Positions 1,204 through 38,513 of a DNA stretch of 64,000 bases are shown in pieces. The stretch comes from Saururus chinensis (taxonomy: Eukaryota > Streptophyta > Magnoliopsida > Piperales > Saururaceae). The stretch spans positions 1,408,501-1,472,500 of the forward strand of contig CP141143.1 of assembly GCA_035235625.1 (NCBI GenBank). Reading direction: 5' to 3'. Numbering within the stretch: position 1 is the stretch's first letter; each line of letters begins with the position of its first letter. Made by a program: the position numbers and the translations under genes. The notes beneath the pieces were generated by a model. The model was not told the origin of the DNA. It did no database searches and saw only the letters and a list, made by a program, of their open reading frames with translations.

Positions 1204-3850
1204 TGTGGCATCCGTCAATTAATAATATATGCCATAATATGCATATTTAATTGTCCGCTCGACACGTGCTATATTACACGTAAAACCGAACATGACGGCT
1301 GACCTTCTGGACAGAATACAAACATATAATACTTGGAGTTGACACACAGCTAATATTACATATAACTACAAAACAGGACCTAGTCCAACTACACCGCATG
1401 TAGAGCAATTATATTACAAAATATAGGCCTATCAAGCCTTTTATAACAATCATAATATTACAAAATATTGATAAAAATTGAAACTATGCAGACATTTCCT
1501 CCGTAGACACCTCCAGATTGGTTTTACTACCTGTAGAGTCTGAGGTTGGGTGAATATTTTTATACTCAGTAGGTGGAATTAAAATCTAATTTAATGCTAA
1601 GTAAAACACCATAATAATTTCTGCAAAACAGATTTAGAAATAATTTCGGAAAAACACTGGTTCGTTCGATGACGATAAATCTAAATCCATGATACCGAAC
1701 AACGTTCCTTCGATGCTCATGGGGCAACCGGAAGCTCAGAAGGCAGGAGTTTTCCCATGATACTCCATACCTATATGCGCGCCAGATACCAATCATTTCT
1801 TCGGTACGTATTCAAAAAATGTTATAATTCTACGTTTAACCCTAGAATTATCTAGACAACACAAATATCCTGACATAAATTAGGGTATATAAAACATAAC
1901 AAGTGTATAACATTTTTCAAAAAACTCAAGCACATGAGCATAACAGAATAAAAACGATGCATTAAAGTCAAGCACATGAGCAGAGCATAAGCTAGAGTTT
2001 AAGACCCCCTACCTTATAATTGGGGTGTAAAGTTTGTAGTTGTAAAGAGCTTGTATGAAAATTTTGGCCCCATCACAGCGTCCGACACCTTGGATTTAGT
2101 TAGAAATGTCTTTTGGACGGGTCGAATCGGACTTAAAACGGCTCAGAACGGAGGGTCAAAAGTTTTAGCTGTGGTAGAAGTGAATAGTAAAAATGAAATG
2201 GGAAGGTATTTATAAAAGGAGCATATTGTGCGACATGTGACGCGTGTCCACCACGCGTCGTGCGGTGGCACCGCGCATGGCACGCGATTACCACACGGGT
2301 TTGCACGGTAGCACGAAACCCGACACGTGGGTTTCGCGTGTCGCTGATAAGTATGAAATTTATATCCATTTTATATGCCTTTTTACCTTATTTGCTAGTA
2401 TAGATTAGGTTAATTTAGAGTTAATTATAGTTTATTTAGATTAAGATAAATATTAGTATTTTAGTTTAATTATTAATGATTTTGTAGTTATTAGTTGTTT
2501 AGACATGTATTTAAATCAAGTTGGAATTTTAATTACATTATACATGTCTAAAGTATGATATTTTATGTTTTGTAGGTAAAGAGCGCTTATCGAAGTACTT
2601 GGACGATGTTTGAAATGCTTAAAAATAGTCTTCACATGCTTTAAAGTGATTTGGACAACTTTTCGGAGTTATAAACAAGTTAGAAATTAATATGGACACG
2701 AAGGAAAGCTTAATGAACAGAATATGAACAGTCCGGAAAAATAGAAACACTGTAGCCGATCGATTGGAGTCACTTACCGATCGATCGGGATAACGTGAAT
2801 TCAAATGAAAATACAGTGTAGCCGATCGATCGGGCATGCAGGGTGATCGATCGGCATAACGTGCAGTTTCCTAGTTTGACCCAAATTTCAATCCTTTTCA
2901 TATTGGACTTCTTCCTATGGAACTTATGCCTATAAAAAGACATATTTGGCTTAGAATTAGGGGATTCCAGTAGATTTTAGGAAGAGAAAAAGGAAGAAGA
3001 AGATGGAAGAGAATTCAAAGCTTTCAATGGAGATTCAAGTGCTTTCTTCTACCATGGAAGGCTAGACTTTTCTTTTACTTAGGAGTTGATGAAGCTATAG
3101 ATAAGTTTCAGTTTCTTTTCTTTTTAATTTAGATCTCAGTTGTGAATGATGACAATTGTATGATATGGATTTCCTTTTTAATAGAAGAGCTTTTAATGTT
3201 TATTCAAGTCTATGTTGATTTATTGTCTTGTAGATGATAGATTGATATGGTTTTGATATTTGCATCGATTCTAATTTCTGTGATTTAGATGAGATGGTCA
3301 TACAATAGTTTTAATGTTCAGATAATTAATGACTTGGATGAGTTATACTAAGATTAGACGGGTCATGCCTATAGCTAGTTTAGTGTAGATGATTCGTGCT
3401 ATTGTCGAAGATAGTTCATGCCATGGAAGTTAATTAATGATTCTTTTTGAAGTAATTCTAGCTTGTAGCTGAGAATACTTGTTCATGTTCACACTAGATT
3501 TAGATTAAAAGTTAAGGAATTGTTATGGTTTTATAGTGGATTCAATTTCCTAAGTAATTTCCATCAAATTAATCTCTTATTTTAAACTAGTTGATTTATT
3601 TTCTTTACCTAATTAAAGTTTAAGTTTGATTTAGTTTTTAATCAGCAAATTTCTCTTTAGATTTAGTAATAATCCATCCATCCCTGAGGTTCGACAACCC
3701 TTAAATACTTATCCTAGTACAATTACCTTGTACACTTGCAAAGGGTTTAATTATAAACGATCAGTCGCGCGGATGCGTAAAAAATAACAAGTTATTTATT
3801 TAATTGAAGGGTTTTACGTCAAATGGATGAGGTTTTACGTCTAAAATAAC
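1204..3850 (-). mobile_element. 5' LTR of minus-strand retroelement, interrupted by a nested solo LTR
   Basis: The LTR begins (plus-strand reading) with tgtggcat next to the PBS. It shares an ordered set of landmarks with the solo LTRs at 5197, 9772 and 12108, here reversed: a CTACTGAGTA...ACTCACCC block (about 1545-1575), a CCCCATGAGC block with a GCGCGCC word (about 1715-1785), a TATA-like tatttataaaag (about 2210) and a CpG-rich stretch (about 2230-2345). It is split at 2345-3763 by a younger solo LTR. Its far edge beyond 3769 could not be fixed, so the right coordinate is approximate. Confidence 0.5.
2345..3763 (+). mobile_element. Solo LTR (1.4 kb) with perfect target duplication
   Basis: The element starts TGATAAGT and ends ACGATCA, with matching TGAT/ATCA termini. 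It is flanked by the perfect 5-bp duplication gtcgc (2340-2344 and 3764-3768). Its 3' part has the phrase ccctgaggttcgacaaccc followed by ttgtacacttgcaaagg, which I associate with LTR ends of the Athila/Tat Gypsy group; that assignment is from memory and tentative. No internal region remains, so it is a solo LTR left by LTR-LTR recombination, nested in the older LTR at 1204. Confidence 0.8.
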
Positions 3851-5105
3851 AAGTTATTCTTCCCCTAGGTTGAAATGATTGAGAGTATTTATTTATTGAG
3901 ACTTCTATAGTTTGCTCCAGGTTGGTCATGACAGTTGTGATGAGGGATTTTTGGTATTTTCTGGTATTTGAGATGTGAGGGATAGGTAACAAGCAACAAG
4001 CGATAGGTAGCATATTTTGATTGGTTGCATTGTTTTATCATCGTGTGATGAGTCTTTATATTCATTTGCACCATATTGTCATATAAGACTTGTGATGGAA
4101 ATGCTAAGACTTATTTGCACAAGTTTTTTCGTAAAGACTTTTCTTTGAATGAACTCATGTGTTAAGGTATTGATACAAGTGATTTCAAATCCTTACTAAG
4201 TTTATACTCACCATTTCTTGCTTTTGGGAATCCTTTGGGGGTGTAATGGTATCACGCAGGTACTCACAACAACTTGTTTTACAAGCAAAATGATAATTGA
4301 GGAGCAACTGAGTGGGGGATTACGATTTGATAAGGTATAATTAGTTGGAAATGAATGAAGAGTCATTATAAGCTTCGTATTACTTGATAGTGTTTCATTC
4401 CTAGTTAGTAGTTTCATTTCATTAGTTTGAGGCATATGTTTATGTCATTATATTGTTACACTAGTATATGGATATGTAATCATAGTTATGATAAAAATAG
4501 TTATATTTCCTTTTTATATTATTCTCCTAGTTGTTTTTTTAGTAAAGCGATGGGTCAACTGTGCAATTCCAATCTAATTCAAGGTTGTGTTAGGAATTGT
4601 TGCATCTTCTAGCCAGTTTTGGGTCAGGGGCGTGGCATTCACAAAGTTCAAAACTCTCAATTCCAAAGAAATAACAATGGTAAAACCTTCCACCAAAGAC
4701 AGAAAAGAGTCCAAGAAGAAAGCTCTACTCACCATGTTCTCTAAAGATTTCTTTTTCAAAGCATCCTTTCCATTCAAAGGAGTTTGCAAGAAAATATTAT
4801 TTCAATCCCAAGGAGTTCGCAAGGAGTTTAAAAATAGAAGAAGTTACACAAATCAAAGGAAAGAAGTTCTCAAGCTTGAAGACAAGACATAGAAAGGAGG
4901 AATCCTTGCATGTGATATTTTTATTTACCTTCTTTTATTTTTTAATACATGTAGTCATCTTTTGACAATTTTAATATTCTTGTCATTTCTCTACTTCCAA
5001 TTTGTCTAATATTTTGTTATTTAATTGAAGGATTTGATAAATCGGTTAATCACCACTACTCTATCCCAATTTTAAATAGTAATAGTGATTGGGCAAGATA
5101 GGGTC
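3851..5105. other. Non-genic stretch, unclassified
   Basis: This 1.2-kb AT-rich region has no recognisable gene. The open frame at 4587-4892 is lysine-rich, has no known domain and contains a short repeated phrase (about 4772-4830), so I do not call it a gene. It may be degraded element sequence belonging to the LTR fossil at its left. Confidence 0.4.
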
Positions 5106-5112
5106 GTGTGTA

Positions 5113-5147
<35 letters not shown>
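5106..5147. repeat. (GT)n(TA)n microsatellite
   Basis: A compound dinucleotide run, GT-rich then TA-rich, lies about 50 bases left of the solo LTR at 5197. Confidence 0.9.
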
Positions 5148-5148
<1 letters not shown>

Positions 5149-5196
5149 AAAGAGGTTTTTCTCTATCTTTTACAAGGAAGGATTATATGATATATT

Positions 5197-6831
5197 TGTA
5201 ATGACCCTAATTTCTAACACGATCTTCTTACATATTTTGTTTATAATTTTCTTAAGTTTTAGTTAGAGCTCGTGAAGACGAGCGTAACGAGTCTTAAAAC
5301 GCGAAGATCAGAGGTCGGGAGCAAAAGTTACGACCTCGGGGAACGTGGTCGACCGGCGGGACCCACTTTCGAAATTTAAGTGGATTGGTTCTTAAATAGT
5401 CTTGTATCGTAGGGCTCGTGAATACGAACTCAACGGTACCAAGAACGCGCAAATCGGAGTTCGGGATAGGAAGTTACGATTTTTGGAATTTTTGGATTTT
5501 TTTAAATTAAAAATAATATTTTATTTTTTTCGGCGCGGCGCGACTCGGCGCAGCGCAACACGCGGCATGTGCCGCGCGGCGCGCGCCGAACGCGCGACGA
5601 ACCGCGCGTTCGTCACGCGCGAACATGGTTTCGCCGGCGCCAGGGGGCGCCGGCCGGTTTGTGGCGGCGCCGGTGGACGCCCGCCTGTTCCGGCGGCGGC
5701 GCCCACCGGAATATTCCCCTCCACCGCCTATTTATACCCTTTCCGGCCACTTCTTCACCCACATCCGATTTTCAGCCCCCTTCACTGTTTTCACCATTCC
5801 CGACCCGTTTTAAGTCCGATTTTCACGTTTCAAGACTCGTTTCCTACTAATTCAAGGGTGCTCTACGCACCGGAAGCATTACTTTCTCGAGATGACCCCT
5901 CTAAGACCTCGAAAAACGTGCCCCTTCCCTAATCTTCTTTTTTCATCTTTTTACTGTTTCTGGGTCATTCCTAAACCTTTTTAACCCGTTCCAAAGCCCT
6001 ACCCTAGTAAATCAAGGGCGTCTACGCGTTGGAGTGGTTATTCTGCTGAAATTCTCGCTCAAAGGCTGATATATTAAGGCGGGATTCTCTTTACGCTACG
6101 AGGAGATTTTGCACGTGTTATAGGTAGGTAGTTTTAAATTCTAATCGTATGCCGAGATTTTGACTCGCTAAAGTCTTACTAAAAGTTTTTCTGTTACTTT
6201 ATGAAAACAAAAGCTCTGACTTCAAAATCATCTCCTCCTTTCGAAAATTTCTCCGAGTTTTGGGCAATCGTGCCGTCTGGATAGTTCTCGGTTCTTCGGA
6301 GCTAAGAATTATTATGATTTTGGATACCGCCAAATTTGGCATCTGGCGCGCACAGGATTGGGATGTCATGGGTAAATCCCTTCCTTTCAGTCTCGCGTCG
6401 CCCCATGGGCGCGGGTGTAAGTCGTTTGGTATCGCGACGTTCTGTGATCGTGTTTTCAGATTTTCCGAAGGATTTCCAAAAAGAAAAATGGCATGTGCAC
6501 GAAGCATATTCTTAGAACTTAATTCGACCTACTGAGTATAAATTTACTCACCCACCCTCAGACTCTGCAGGTGTTTCACTCAATTCTGAAGGAGTCGACG
6601 AAGGGTTTCCTTAAATTACAAGTTTTGTATTACTGTTTTTGTATTTATGTAAATTATTGTATTGACCAATGTACAAAGGCACGTGATGCCTAATTTTGGA
6701 CAATCTTTGTATAATACAAAGTATGTTGTAATTACTGTTTTAGTACACGGTGATCCTTGGCAATTGTAATTAAATTTTGTTACGTTTTCAAAAATTGTTT
6801 TCTTTTATTCGAAAATACGAGGAGCGTTACA
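5197..6831 (+). mobile_element. Solo LTR (1.6 kb) with perfect target duplication
   Basis: It starts TGTAATGACCC and ends GGAGCGTTACA (TGTAA/TTACA termini) and is flanked by the perfect 5-bp duplication atatt (5192-5196 and 6832-6836). Internal landmarks in order are a very CpG-rich block (5530-5710), a TATA-like tatttatac (about 5729), the GCGCGCACAGG word (about 6347), CCCCATGGGC, and CTACTGAGTA...CTCACCCACC (about 6529-6557). The order is the same as in the copy at 12108, so the two belong to one family, probably Ty3/Gypsy. Overlapping open frames in the CpG block reflect composition, not genes. Confidence 0.8.
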
Positions 6832-31551: not shown

Positions 31552-31560
31552 TATGAATTA
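31552..31560. repeat. Target-site duplication (left) of the Mutator-like element
   Basis: tatgaatta directly precedes the left terminal inverted repeat. It matches tatgaacta at 38505-38513 at 8 of 9 bases. A 9-bp duplication is the hallmark of Mutator-superfamily insertion. Confidence 0.85.
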
Positions 31561-31852
31561 GGGAAATTTATTAAAATAATAATTAAAAAAAATAATTATT
31601 TTTAAAGTGGTGTTTGTTTTTGCCACGCTGGCGTCAGCGTGGCTTTTTTTAATATTTTTTAAGTTAATTTCGTCGTTTAGAACGACGAAATTGGCTTGAA
31701 TACGATTTCGTCGTTCTAAATGACGAAACCTTATATTACTTGACCCAGTTTCATCGTTCAGAACGACGAAATCAACTTAAGCTGATTTCGTCGTTCTGAA
31801 CGACGAAACTACCACCCTTATGTTATTTCGGGCTCAGTCGTGGGAGGACACT
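31561..31852. repeat. Left terminal inverted repeat of the MULE
   Basis: It pairs with 38179-38504. It includes the near-palindrome gccacgctggcgtcagcgtg (from 31622) and four palindromes built on tttcgtcgtt..aacgacgaaa at about 31668, 31704, 31749 and 31784. Confidence 0.9.
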
Positions 31853-32062
31853 TCTTAAATTTTTTTAAAATTACTATTTAAAACTAATTTTATCACCTGT
31901 CCCTGTTCATTCATTCAAAACACAGAACACAAAACACACATAAATATGCACGACTTCATTCATTCCACCCATAACAAATATCACTATCACGAATATCACC
32001 ATAACAAATATAAGTAAAGTACATCATATACGAGTAACAAATATAATACATCACAAGTAATA

Positions 32063-34421
32063 TCATAATCTCTTACATCCTCGTCCTCGCCCTCGCCCTC
32101 GCCCTCGTCCTCGACGAGGGTGTACGAGCTCCTCATGATCTACCTCTGGCTGTGGCTCTAACTCTGGCTCTAACTGGGGCTCGGGCTCAGGCTCCGACTG
32201 GGGCTGGGGCTCAGGCTCGGGCTGGGGCTCCGGCTGCGACTCCATGTCAGGCTCCTGCTCGGGCTTCGGCTCAGCATAAGTAATAGATGGTACAATACGA
32301 GCTGGACGATGTCGTCTATAATATAAAATCGGATCTGGCTGAGTGACATGTGTAGTATCTGGAAATGATGAACCTGGAGGAGAGCTATATGCTACTGATG
32401 ATGATGGAATATCAGGGCATGAAGAGTGCATCGGCTGCGTCTGAGCGGCCTCGTCGACAGGATAATCTCGATGAACATCCGTGATCACCGAATGAAGTAG
32501 TGGCAAGCTACGAAGGACATCATTAGACGATCTAATCACCGACTCACATCTTCTTTGCTAAGTCCTCACGCGAAATACAGGTGACAAGTGCATCACTCAA
32601 ATACGCATTAGTATGTCGAAGCTGACGAAGCTATAAAAAAATAAATTAAATATTAGATAAATAATTAAAACAAAATAAGAAAATAATATATGCCTTAATT
32701 AACAAAGTTGTACTTACTAGAGCTGCCTCAGATGCTCCCCCAGGCTGATATGTCATCTCCTCTACATCATCGCGCGGTAAAATATATCGCCGTGTAATCG
32801 GTAAATACCAGTGCATATAAGTACTACGAACATCTCGCAATGTCGTAGCCAACTCCCCTCTAATAATAGTGGATCTCCTATCCTCCCATCGAGCAATATA
32901 CGACGCATGATATATAGCCCAGTCGGTAATATGGCGGCCCTATCGAGTGATGCGATGGACAAACTCGACAGTAGAAGGTGGGACCCCTTGCTCCAGGTTA
33001 AACTGGAGCATTACACGATCTGGCACATACATCTCTATAATCTCATAATATATGAGAGGGGTTCGAGAAAGCCACACCTCTCGACCGTCAGTGCAGAGTG
33101 GAGGTATCACAGCGAATAAGTCCTCCGAGTACGGCTGCCAAATAATCTATATAATATATAAAGATAAGTTAGTTTAAATAACGACAAAATTTTTTAAAAT
33201 CATTATATAAAAAAGTTCAACACGACAATAAAATTACCTGGTATGGCCGCTGGTGGTCTAACTCCCCTCTATATAAACGGAGGACTCCTTGTAGATTTTC
33301 GGTTCTCTTCTTCCGAACATTCCACCTTAAGGAGTTAAATTTAAGAAATGAGTTCAGCATATGTTCATAAAACGTTGCACAAAAAGTAATGTGGTAAACA
33401 TAAATACAACCTACCTCACCCCTAATGGAACACCCTCGACCAAGCGACCCATCTCAGCAGTTGGTCGGCTGATGTGTAAGTGCTCCCACGACCATAACTA
33501 TGTCATAAAATAGTGATAACAAATATTAGAAATAAAAAATTATACGTGACTAAAACTCCAAGTAAAGTTACACAATTATTTACCTGAAGAAGAGTAAGAC
33601 AGCCCGCAATCCCCGAGGTCATGGCCTGGCATGCCTTTCCTAACTCTCTGTATAAGAATGCGAGAGTAGCACTGCCCCATAAATAAGTGTCAGCCATGTC
33701 AAAGTCGTGAAGGAGAGAGAGATACGAAACATGCACGTGGCTGCTCGTGGTATCCGCAAATATAGTGGCTCCAAGTAAATGCAATATATAGGCTCGTGCA
33801 TGCTGCTCGATAACTATCTCTGTAGCATTGGCTGGGAGCTCACGAAACTCCTGTAACAGCCATCGTAGGCTCACTCGGCTACCACGCATCACTGTAGGAG
33901 GAGGAGCTCTACCAAGAAGTCTAAGTAATATATCCATATGAGCTCCTCCTGTCGTGCACTCCTCACTGGACGTCCATCAATACGGAGTCCTAATAGAACT
34001 GCCACATCCATGAGCGTGATGGACATCTCTCCATATGACAAATGAAACGTCTGTGTCTCCCTCCTCCATCTCTCAACAAGAGCCATCAATAGAGGCCGAT
34101 CGAGACGAACATACTGTAGATGAGTGAAATGGCCGAATCCCGCTCGCTCGATATAAGGTAATATACGCTCATCTATAGGCCAATGACGGAGGTATTTAAA
34201 ATGTTCGGTGCACTCAAGGCACCCGGGGTCCTATAATAAATTTTAAAATTATAACATGTCGTATTATATCAACCAAAAAACAATGAAACAAATTTTAAAA
34301 AAAGTTATCATACCTCTCCTCTCCAAATAGCAGCAGACCTATGTGACTCCTGCTCTACGAGTAAAGAAGCGTCACTCGGGCCTGGCCCGTAACAAGGCTC
34401 TACATGATCCATATGATCTGT
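32063..34421 (-). pseudogene. Plant mobile domain (PMD, MAIN-like) gene inside the MULE, broken
   Basis: Probable exons with GT-AG borders encode an N-terminal MDHVEPCYGPGPSDA (start near 34412), then the PMD core: HFTHLQYVRLDRPLLMALVE, RRETQTFHLSYGEMSITLMD, AVLLGLRIDGRPV (to about 33960). Next come RWLLQEFRELPA and HARAYILHLLG (about 33800), the LYRGELDHQRPYQ and PPLCTDGREVWLSRTPL blocks (33240-33090), then a C-terminal tail of PEPEPQ repeats and RGRGRGRG (32063-32260). PMD proteins of the MAIN/MAIL type act in the nucleus in gene silencing and genome stability, and the domain is known to occur in transposons. I see one frame change near 33940 and one in-frame stop near 32945, so this copy is non-functional unless edited by splicing. 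It lies about 0.1 kb downstream of the transposase, in the same orientation. Confidence 0.75.
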
Positions 34422-34508
34422 GGAAGATGAAGATCATATCATTAATCGTAAGGAATACATGCGTACGTAACTAAAAAAATATAATAAATACAGAGGTTGA
34501 TTATATGT

Positions 34509-37353
34509 TTACCAATCAACAGGAGGGTTTCTACATGATTTACTATTATGCCCACTTTGTTTACACCTCCCGCATTTATAGCCTCCTCTACCATCTCTTT
34601 CCATTGTTCTGCGGTCCATGGTATTCCTAATGCGAACAAACCGTGGGCGACCGGGTTGCCTTGTTGCTATCGGTGGGTATAACACAAACGGTATATCCCT
34701 CTCCCAATACTCCCGACCACGAGGAGAATAAAATTCTGCAGAGTACACATTTCTACAAGTAGAAGATGTGTAAAACAGTGATGCATTGATTGGCTCCCGC
34801 CGCTTTGCCCACACGGCGATAAGGTGCGAACAAGGATAACCATACACCTGAGGGATGTTGCATGTACAAGTATGCATCGCAGCATTTACCATAACCTTGC
34901 GGGCACAAATTGATGTCACTTAAATCGACTCCTGTTGATCCTATTAACTATATACTCCCCAATTTTTCTTGTTTGCTCTCTCAATATGGCTTCCACTCTA
35001 GGAGTATATGGGGTGACTATGGCAGAGGCGGCAAAAGATCGTTTAACAAAAAATTTTATGAGCCGATAAAAGATAGTTGACACTAAAGCCTGCATGGGTA
35101 ACCCTCGTGCCCCCTTCAAGACGCTATTTAAACTTTCAGCCATATTTGTAGTCGTCATGCCAAATGTCATAAAACCACCGTGTGCAAGGGACCACTGTGC
35201 AGGATGCAATTCTCCTCCTAAGAGGAGATGTTTTGCCTTAGGACTCTCTTGACCAATCAAGTCCATTTTAGCATCAAACTTTTCTAGTGAGTGCACAAGC
35301 TGTTGCCCCAATCAAGTCCGTCAGTGTATCATTTTTGAACTCCTTCTTAAAATTTGCTTTTATATGACGGATGCAATAACGATGGTGGTAATCCGGCTCT
35401 GGAAGAACCTCAGGCACTGCCTTCTGAAGCCCCTTATGTCGATCTGAAATAATGACGATGTTCGTCATGCCCATCAGTACATGATCCCTCAATTCCATTA
35501 GAAACCATTTCCAATTGTCTCTGTCTTCCTTCCCGACAAGCCCGAATGCAAGAGGAAATAACCCATTATTTCCATCTGTAGCCGTTGCAGCCATAAGAGC
35601 ACCAGGATATCTACCATACAAGTGAGTGGCATCAATGCCAATCACAGGGATGCAATGTCGAAACCCAGCTATAGACGGCCCAAAGACCCAAAATAACCGT
35701 CTAAATCTCCTACAAGTGCCACCATCTGCACGAGGTACTACATCATCCTCTAAGCGGTAGTAGGTGTCAGGATTGGCTTCTTGCACCGCCCTTAGGTACA
35801 TTGGCAACAATTTATACGATTCAACCCAATCTCCATAAATGGCCTTGATCGCCATATTCCTTGCTGCCCATGCTTTCTTATAAGATATGTCAACATGATA
35901 CTTCTCCTTCATTCTTTGAATAATATCCCCTAGTGTGAGAGTTAATTCGGCTTGGATAGCGGGCATTATGACCTTCAAAATAAAGGAGGCACTGCACTGC
36001 CTATGATCTGTGCTAAGCTGGGCATTCCGACATGTGTGGTCACCTTTGTACGTCTTCAATTTAAAGAACCCACCACCCCTTTTGATTGAGCCATGCACTC
36101 TCTAAGGGCAAGTGCTATCAATGCACTTCACTGTATACTCCGCCGGATTTGTTCGTACAACCTTGTATTCGACATGATTTTGAATGGAAAACTCCTGCAA
36201 GGCTGTAACGAATGCTTCTTTATTCTCAAAGATGCGGCCAACGTATAACTCATCTTCGTTTTGTTGGTCCAAATCCATTGTAGAATTCACTGCAGCATCT
36301 ATCTCCTCATCTGTGATGTGTGCATAAAGTGGCTCCACTTCACAGTACGACGGCTCTTCATCATCTACATTCATATCATTCCCAGCAATGGCATTGTCTA
36401 CCGCATCATCCCCCTCGCCGTCAACCATCTGTTGAGCACTTTCTTCACCTCTAACCCCTTCTACATTCATATCAGAATCTTCTCCACTTACTTCGTCAAT
36501 ATTATCTTCACCTTCATTATCCTCATTTTCATCAATATCTTCACCGTAGACATATCCCCCCTACATATAAACATCGCATATGTATTAAATTTCGTAAGCC
36601 TAAAAAAGTTGAATTTATTTATAAATATATATTTCACCTTTGATTAGATGGTCCAACATCGGTATGACCAACATACGTGTAGGGGTAATGAAGGCCCATC
36701 GAACTTTGAGTTTCATACCATGCACCGCCTTGAGACATTGGAACGCTAAATGGCTCGTGTGCATGCGTCGTAGACCTTCCATATTATACACAAAATCTCA
36801 AAATTTAGCTAAACGTATTTTCATTAAAGGATAATAAGATTGAAAACGTATTCACAACTAAATCAACCCTTACCTACAAGTAGGTCCACTTTCATCGTAA
36901 ATAGGGGCAGACGACCTATGACGTTCATTTGAAGCTACTGTCATAGATAAATTTCCTTCTTCTTCGTCGTCCACCGGCACTTGCATATGACTTTCATTGT
37001 TCACATTTCTATCCAAGCTCCTTTGTGAGCTTCTGTGAGAGCTCCTATGTGAACTACTTCGCCTTCCACTAATCACTCGGGCCTCTTTTTCGAGAAATAA
37101 CTCGAAAGAAATTATGTCGCGAGTGGTGAAACATAAAAGCCATTGATGAATCATTATTTATGTTCATTAATATCATTCTCGATCCATAGGACGGAAGATT
37201 ACATTTGATAGTAATTTTCCATCTTCTTCGATCCAACCCAACCTTACTTGCTACGTGCATCTCAAATTCATCAAATGTAGACGGTTTCTTCATTAATAAT
37301 CCTTTTATGTGTCCGTCGTAGTTAATGAAAAAACTAACAATTTCTTCTGCCAT
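34509..37353 (-). pseudogene. MuDR-type transposase of the MULE, broken
   Basis: The N-terminal part (MAEEIVSFFINYDGH, 37353 downward) is followed by a Ser/Arg and acidic region (36200-37150, with an apparent intron near 36640-36560). The catalytic domain at 35274-36098 shows the DDE elements: VIGIDATHLYGRYPG (first Asp), IISDRHKGLQKAV (second Asp), then MAESLNSVLKGARGLP (Glu, about 35140). A SWIM zinc finger CTCNIPQVYGYPCSH (about 34870) and a zinc knuckle CGRCKQSGHNSKSC (about 34550) end the protein, the usual MURA order. Interruptions are visible: frame changes near 37110, 35300 and 34920 and an in-frame stop near 36102. The transposase would bind the terminal repeats and cut and paste the element; this copy is a recent pseudogene. 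Confidence 0.88.
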
Positions 37354-37886
37354 TTTTATTCAATTAATTCATAAATAATAAATAAAATTAATATTAGATT
37401 AAGCAAACTAATACTAATATCTACTCTAACAAATATATTTAAAAAATATATACACATAGAAACTAATAACTTTACCAAGTATATAAGCATATCATCAATA
37501 CTTTATATTAATGAGTAAATTTTCTAATTAATAAAATTAGACATTTAATGTAATAACGCATACAATGTCACATATCATATAAAAACATGTTCAAAAACTC
37601 AAATCCTCCTTATTTTCCAAAATTTGAGAGACTTGCTATCTTAAAAAACAAAAACTCATTAATTAAAAATCCATCTCAATTTAATAATCTTAAACAAAAA
37701 AAACACACACAATGACTTAGAACAATACTTCTAAAATTAGGGCTAAATGATAGGACATTCAAAACTTCATATTTTTTAAATGTAATATACAAAAACTATA
37801 TTTCTTCAATGTAACATATAAAAAATATATTACAACAATTAAAAAATAGGTAAATAAAAAAAAATAGAAAAACACATACCAAAAAA

Positions 37887-38108
37887 ATGAAATGGGAGCA
37901 GTTCGACGTGGGCAGTGGCGAGCTAGACCAAGGCGGCGGCGGACTGAGGTTGGCGACGGCGGACTGCAGTCGGCGGCAGCAGAATGAGGTCGGCGGAGGC
38001 GGGCTGGACAGCGGCGGCGAGTTTGGCAGCGTCCGGACGTCGGCAGCAGCGGCGGAGCAAAAACACACTGGAACGCGATGGGAGGCGGAGCGGAGTCGCG
38101 GATATAAC
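37887..38108. other. GC-rich island inside the MULE near its right end
   Basis: About 220 bases of GGC/GGCGG-rich sequence lie in an otherwise very AT-rich element, between the transposase start and the right terminal repeat. Both strands are open here, giving Gly/Ala-rich or Pro/Ser-rich low complexity. This could be transposase leader, or a captured host fragment as in Pack-MULEs. No homology is recognised. Confidence 0.5.
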
Positions 38109-38178
38109 GACGATGATTTCGTCGTTCAGAACGACGAAATCAACTTAAGTTGATTTCGTCGTTTAGAACGACGAAATC

Positions 38179-38504
38179 AGTGTCTTTCCCACGACCGAGA
38201 CCGAAATAACACAAGTGTGGTAGTTTTGTCGTTCAGAATGACGAAATCAGCTTAAGTTGATTTCGTCGTTCTGAACGACGAAACCGGGTCAAGTAATATA
38301 AGGTTTCGTCGTTTAGAACGATGAAATCGTATTCAAGCCAATTTCGTCGTTCTAAACGACGAAATCAACTTAAAAAATATATAAAAAAAAAAAGCCACGC
38401 TGGCGCCAGCGTGGCAAAAACGAACACCACTTTAGGAAATATTTTCCAAAGTGGTATATTTTAGTAATTATTTTTTTTATTATTATTATTTTAATAAATT
38501 TCCC
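38179..38504. repeat. Right terminal inverted repeat of the MULE
   Basis: Reverse complement of 31561-31852, with about 26 extra bases near 38430-38460. It carries four of the tttcgtcgtt-type palindromes (about 38224, 38259, 38303, 38341). Two more (about 38115 and 38151) lie just inside the repeat and are absent from the left end. Confidence 0.9.
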
Positions 38505-38513
38505 TATGAACTA
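38505..38513. repeat. Target-site duplication (right) of the Mutator-like element
   Basis: tatgaacta directly follows the right end, matching tatgaatta at 31552-31560 with one mismatch. Confidence 0.85.

Follow-up and report, generated by a model that had tools for sequence, protein, structure and literature searches.

Why would a transposon carry, beside its own transposase, a gene related to those with which plants silence transposons? The question is raised by a 64,000-nucleotide stretch of the Saururus chinensis genome (assembly GCA_035235625.1, contig CP141143.1, here C4, positions 1,408,501 to 1,472,500), called the window throughout, in which positions 31561-38504 are occupied by a DNA transposon, a Mutator-like element (MULE) of the MuDR type. 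Its minus strand holds two genes, one for a MuDR-type transposase and, directly following it, one of four exons with a plant mobile domain (PMD). A search of the genome (516 Mb in 11 contigs) shows the PMD to be a standing gene of the family to which this element belongs, termed family I, whose complete unit runs terminal inverted repeat (TIR), transposase, PMD, TIR, with the PMD in sense orientation behind the transposase. It is asked here what keeps the PMD in place, and we consider it fairly probable that the window holds a dead copy of such a MuDR-type family, the PMD of which has been under selection.

The PMD as a standing gene of family I

Twenty loci were fetched around transposase matches; because they were picked from ranks 2-35 of the 140 matches listed, they are close relatives of the window copy, not a random sample. 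The PMD part is covered by a match in 19 of them, the sole PMD-less locus (L020) having lost 4221-5708 of the element, PMD included, and L023 being without a piece of PMD exon 1. Among the matches listed, at least 98 of the 140 transposase matches are followed, 1763-1963 bp downstream, by a PMD start on their own strand, and none of the 140 has an opposite-strand PMD start within 4 kb or a same-strand one in the 8 kb upstream. This spacing count draws on 214 PMD starts, pooled by hand from four sets of PMD matches, three of them partial, so the 42 transposase matches without a listed PMD are not evidence of its absence; L009 and L027, which belong to these 42, do carry a PMD, and L020 does not.

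Older copies (L029, L030, L033, and L034) keep the order of transposase followed by PMD, with identities of 77-97% for transposase pieces, 69-86% for PMD core pieces, and 60-70% for pieces of the PMD tail; one short, misframed PMD core piece of L030 is only 42% identical. At the DNA level, taken per 250-bp step up to 6250, the PMD half of these four copies is 76-88% identical, as opposed to 86-96% for the transposase half, the shift lying near the gene border, and this greater divergence may reflect an exchange of modules.

The gap between the two genes is constant as well, with 96 bp from the transposase stop to the PMD ATG in each of five copies, and the PMD thus has no insertion borders of its own. 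The sequence-only reading, which had described the two genes as parts of one element, is in this way extended to other copies, and a family generally lacking the PMD can be set aside. PMD exon 1 starts 5 nt behind a 3' splice site, CTTCCACAG, as measured in these five copies. Whether the two genes yield a fusion was examined for two donors. Splicing from a donor-like GTAAAC at the end of the transposase meets an immediate stop in all five copies. With the PB1 exon as donor, two of the five copies could be read, and in both the reading frame continues into the transposase exon but not into the PMD. An in-frame transposase-PMD fusion is therefore not supported by these two junctions. Given the position of the splice site, the 96-bp gap, and the lack of an in-frame fusion at either junction, the PMD would be translated on its own, probably after splicing of its transcript; the short distance between the genes makes it likely that this transcript is alternatively spliced or started inside the transposase gene.

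Selection on the PMD and a second PMD-carrying family

Ratios of nonsynonymous to synonymous divergence (dN/dS) were calculated by the Nei-Gojobori method, each old copy being compared with 11 young ones. The latter were picked from 21; the 10 omitted, to which the window copy belongs, are mostly more diverged or damaged, and L032, L035, and L036 did not enter the comparison either. PMD exon 2 gives 0.11-0.24 (nine old copies), and with four old copies each, PMD exon 3 gives 0.28-0.35, transposase exon 2 0.24-0.33, and the PEPEPQ/RGRGRG tail, which serves as an internal control, 0.79-0.85. Third codon positions account for 53-68% of the differences in PMD exon 2, for 46-54% in PMD exon 3 and the transposase, and for 27-30% in the tail. 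Judged by these substitution patterns, the PMD core exons (0.11-0.35 overall) have been under purifying selection while subfamilies split, more strongly than the transposase in exon 2 and to a similar degree in exon 3, whereas the tail is, on the same measure, a low-complexity extension that is nearly unconstrained. From the ratios together with the third-position shares, the PMD can therefore be regarded as a working gene of the lineage. Among young copies, post-insertion decay dominates, with dN/dS of 0.50-0.69 and 1.30 for the tail.

A strong PMD match, L031, 38% identical, led to a second PMD population. In this family II (L037 and L057), the PMD is paired with a MULE transposase distinct from that of family I, which lies on the other strand and faces it. 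One exon of this transposase exceeds the cut-offs for MULE (42.5 bits) and ZSWIM1-3 (40.3 bits), its long exon falling just under the MULE cut-off (26.5 against 27.6 bits). The pairing was counted in the best 76 of 150 PMD rows, which include groups III and IV, the other 74 being weaker or fragments and many of them family I. A convergent transposase lies within 6 kb downstream of the PMD in 39 of these 76, a same-strand transposase downstream in none and upstream in one; 39 of 70 merged transposase loci take part in the pairing, for which chance predicts about 0.0016 transposases per PMD within 12 kb. The PMD of family II is likewise under constraint, with dN/dS of 0.07-0.09 (L037 against L039 and L040) at a synonymous divergence (dS) of about 1.5-1.7. 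Across PMD groups II-IV, the ratio is 0.07-0.25, at dS above 1 and near saturation, and close copies give 0.16-0.75. The left border of family II lies near L037:2391-2395 by comparison with L031; its right border and inverted ends were not found at the loci compared.

Further features of these groups can be added. The C-terminus of the family-II transposase has a DGHCGF motif (L037:7281-9001 and L057); this C-terminus may be OTU-protease-like and the transposase FAR1-like, neither of which Pfam confirmed. The family-II genes are separated by a region with tandem repeats of about 129 and 138 bp (L037 and L057). PMD group IV (L044-L049) consists of several genes 52-57% identical to the L031 PMD, and no transposase frame was seen in the flanks of one copy (L058 and L059; 5.3 kb). 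When 26 rows were placed in a protein tree, family I and family IV each came to form one side of a fully supported branch, and family II did so less firmly (78/82). The matches listed for an approximate MAIN sequence are 47-51% identical to it, many of them being family-I copies; with midpoint rooting, and in a tree without genic PMD or gypsy PMD-A references, a fully supported branch sets family I and this MAIN row apart from the PMDs of families II-IV. Searches for host MAIN/MAIL genes listed matches of 47-52% identity, many at known family-I places, and no genic PMD stood out among those listed.

Ends, genes, and decay of the window copy

The limits of the window element follow from the inverted arms of its TIRs together with the 9-bp target-site duplication (TSD), and they agree with those given by the sequence-only reading, which had put the inverted repeats at about 300 bp. 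The two TIRs measure about 285 and 318 bp and are 89-94% complementary across three ungapped pieces; the two copies of the TSD agree at eight of nine bases (Table 1). At the 20 fetched loci, the duplication is perfect in 14, has one mismatch in one and 2-5 mismatches in four, and the left end was undetected at the remaining one. The TSD-flanked unit is thus present at many genomic places, and its appearance in the window is not due to chance.

The gene content described from the sequence was recovered as well: both genes are read from the minus strand in tandem, the DDE and SWIM domains exceed their Pfam cut-offs, and PF10536 matches the PMD in three pieces (80.2, 77.5, and 46.2 bits), all above the cut-off of 34.9. 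With its DDE domain, 9-bp TSD, long TIRs, N-terminal domain, and SWIM finger, the window copy has the make-up of a MuDR-type MULE. For the zinc knuckle, the motif is readable, its profile score staying below the cut-off. In L011 and L019, the junction of transposase exons 1 and 2 preserves the reading frame.

Table 1. Features of the element in window coordinates
Feature	Position	Strand	Basis
Left TSD, TATGAATTA	31552-31560	.	Direct comparison of flanks
Right TSD, TATGAACTA	38505-38513	.	Direct comparison of flanks
TIR, side of the genes' 3' end	31561-31845	.	Inverted pairs
TIR, side of the genes' 5' end	38187-38504	.	Inverted pairs
Inverted arms	31559-31592/38473-38506	.	34 nt, 94%
Inverted arms	31594-31650/38387-38443	.	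57 nt, 89%
Inverted arms	31644-31845/38187-38388	.	202 nt, 94%
Four palindromes, TTTCGTCGTT-NNN-AACGACGAAA	31668-31808 (from 31668, 31706, 31749, 31786)	.	At most 3 mismatches
Six palindromes, TTTCGTCGTT-NNN-AACGACGAAA	38117-38364 (from 38117, 38154, 38224, 38261, 38304, 38342)	.	
Transposase exon 1, weakly PB1-like	36874-37353	-	PF00564 E 0.064, below cut-off
Transposase exon 2 (DNA-binding, DDE, SWIM, zinc knuckle)	34509-36560	-	Pfam profiles
DBD_Tnp_Mut domain	36105-36254	-	PF03108 E 7.9e-7, over cut-off
MULE transposase DDE domain	35352-35645	-	PF10551 E 8.9e-21, 74.6 bits (cut-off 27.6)
SWIM zinc finger	34812-34895	-	PF04434 E 6.7e-6, over cut-off
Zinc knuckle, CGRCKQSGHNSKSC	34530-34583	-	PF13696 17.6 bits (cut-off 27), below; motif by eye
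PMD exon 1 with start codon (MDHVEPCYG...AIWRGE), 33 codons	34314-34412	-	By eye
PMD exon 2, PMD profile 1-181	33584-34230	-	PF10536 E 2.1e-22, 1.5e-21; end by eye
PMD exon 3	32718-33146	-	PF10536 E 4.5e-12; ends by eye
PMD exon 4 (PEPEPQ and RGRGRG tail)	32063-32630	-	Start by eye from splice site
PEPEPQ/RGRGRG tail within the PMD gene	32063-32557	-	

All 10 palindromes of the window element fall in its terminal 600 bp, and none appears in 30 dinucleotide shuffles. Each of 21 copies has 5-13 palindromes (at most 3 mismatches), which are confined to the terminal 600 bp and leave the interior free; genome-wide, there are 1152 exact sites, versus 0 for the reversed pattern. The ratio of observed to expected CpG in the window copy is 2.1-2.2 in the TIRs and 0.65 in the transposase. 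The palindromes may serve a dimeric protein of the element as binding sites.

The window copy itself is dead. Comparison with intact exons of other copies, covering every exon except PMD exon 1, reveals a frameshift or stop in each: in transposase exon 1, a frameshift near 37118; in transposase exon 2, frameshifts near 36561, 35286, and 34926 and stops at 36104 and 34922; in PMD exon 2, a frameshift at 33958-33962; in PMD exon 3, a stop at 32942; and in PMD exon 4, a frameshift near 32549-32556. Among 21 copies, which average 88-96% identity to one another, 45 of 6821 sites compared (0.66%) are private to the window copy. The impression of a recent copy is supported by these few private sites and weakened by the nearest sampled relative, which is 97.2% identical, by the mismatch in the TSD, and by the broken state of all exons compared.

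Two spots within the genes vary in an unusual manner. At 34920-34926 in the transposase exon (3579-3586 in sense), a few nucleotides differ in length and letters among copies amid conserved surroundings, resembling repeated break repair or excision footprints. At 33957-33962 in the PMD, the window copy and L032 both have two additional nucleotides, a recurrent spot of change; because the inserted letters differ, no shared frameshift is claimed, and a lesion inherited jointly with L032 was dropped. The stop at 32942 is common to both copies. Outside the element, plastid rbcL copies were noted in nuclear contigs, the best of which (G000:C3:25640723-25641649) has one stop; a nuclear rbcL copy matches Rubisco chains of the plant type.

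Possible roles of the PMD

That PMDs occur in transposons, as the sequence-only reading had stated, is already in print. The domain was first described with a rice MULE (PMC5418596), and Table 1 of PMC6446971 lists it as an extra open reading frame, sense or antisense, in several plant groups, namely MULE-Solanaceae_1, VANDAL, MuDR-9_OS, MULE-Monocots, MDR, MUDRAVI2, and MUDR. These groups share with family I a 9-bp TSD (where given), TIRs (14-421 bp where given), and a transposase with SWIM or CCHC; in S. chinensis, the PMD is sense in family I and antisense in family II. For grasses and Amborella, MULE-PMD fusions have been reported, two captures were inferred, including that of a genic PMD-C, and an anti-silencing function was speculated on (Ikeda et al. 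2017, PMC5418596). The PMD-C described there is likewise associated with a MULE transposase but fused to it, whereas the genes of family I are separate reading frames with two junctions that give no in-frame fusion. MAIN and MAIL1 silence transposable elements with PP7L, and PMDs borne by such elements have been proposed as counter-silencers (PMC8616336, PMC5418596, PMC7156037). VANDAL elements with VANC, the anti-silencing MULEs of Arabidopsis (PMC13317346), likewise combine a MULE with an additional gene, and short motifs recur in their non-coding parts; unlike them, family I has TIRs and a PMD gene, and its repeated motifs are palindromes in the TIRs. In a search of an open-access collection, outside which most subscription papers lie, only PMC8616336 came up for MULE, PMD, and purifying selection together. 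Because PMC6446971, PMC5418596, and PMC8616336 describe them, the kind of element and the counter-silencing hypothesis are not new; the selection result and the occurrence of two families in one genome are additions.

In the proposed course of events, the joint product of the two transposase exons would bind the palindrome arrays in the TIRs, cut the element out, and reinsert it with a 9-bp duplication. The most likely role of the PMD, although our confidence in it stays somewhat short of even, is that of a MAIN/MAIL-like nuclear protein through which the genes of the element stay expressed. It may achieve this by joining the host MAIN/MAIL1/PP7L silencing complex or by competing with it, which would amount to a counter-silencing role. 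The wider proposition, that two distant MULE lineages each keep, by purifying selection, a PMD of their own against MAIN/MAIL-PP7L silencing, family I through the CpG-rich palindromes of its TIRs, seems unlikely.

It should be noted that several points weigh against this picture. Between old copies, dN/dS is higher (0.26-0.60). These copies are not independent of one another, and of the nine that represent exon 2, five (L050, L051, and L053-L055) are short stretches viewed without their flanks. Two of the five copies measured, L012 and L016, have lost the AG of the 3' splice site upstream of the PMD (CACAT). Counting the reference copy of each exon, which is lesion-free by construction, lesion-free exons number 12 of 19 for transposase exon 1, 1 of 21 for transposase exon 2, 8 of 20 and 7 of 20 for PMD exons 2 and 3, and 2 of 21 for the tail. 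Decay of CpG to TG/CA is not lower in the TIRs (14%) than in the exons (10%), and 80% of CpGs are kept in the TIRs versus 88-89% in the exons; protection of TIR CpGs was thus not seen, the sampled copies give no sign of methylation protection, and a VANC-like loss of methylation on the own family receives no support from CpG decay. Which protein binds the palindromes is a guess, and selection shows that the PMD has a function, not which one.

The MuDR element of maize, with its genes mudrA and mudrB, provides a model for a different function. There, mudrB, which is not known to encode a PMD protein and is convergent, probably assists transposition; family I is alike in combining a MuDR-type transposase with a second gene and differs in that its PMD stands in tandem. 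The PMD may accordingly be an accessory factor for integration or for reaching the DNA, unrelated to silencing, a role that appears possible though doubtful. In keeping with such a factor, the PMD core and the transposase are constrained to a comparable degree, and two distant MULE families each have a PMD next to their transposase. However, host PMD proteins are tied to silencing or gene expression, not to integration (PMC8616336, PMC5418596, PMC7156037), and several MULE groups are without a PMD in Table 1 of PMC6446971.

Far less probable is a host gene acquired by capture and since carried along as a passenger, in the manner of Pack-MULEs, even if MULEs can capture pieces of host genes, a genic capture has been inferred for PMD-C (PMC5418596), and the core ratios of young copies (0.50-0.69) are those expected after insertion. 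Purifying selection between old and young copies and the fixed spacing (at least 98 of 140 among the matches listed) disfavour it, and where a Pack-MULE holds a captured gene fragment without a transposase, the window copy, broken as it is, has a transposase and all four PMD exons in recognisable form. A secondary insertion of the PMD into an ordinary MULE deserves practically no credence: no evidence for it was found, and it is rejected because the PMD sits at the same position in 19 of the 20 fetched loci and in older copies, with the 96-bp gap in five of five.

In PMC5418596 and PMC8616336, as far as their available text goes, the proposal that PMDs borne by transposable elements counter silencing rested on relatedness alone. 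S. chinensis offers a large family in which the arrangement of the two genes is fixed, with a PMD core maintained by selection and a tail that is not, along with a second MULE lineage that keeps another PMD, and the speculation therefore becomes a defined test system. If the two lineages do keep their PMDs against host silencing, this would be a second MULE anti-silencing system besides VANC.

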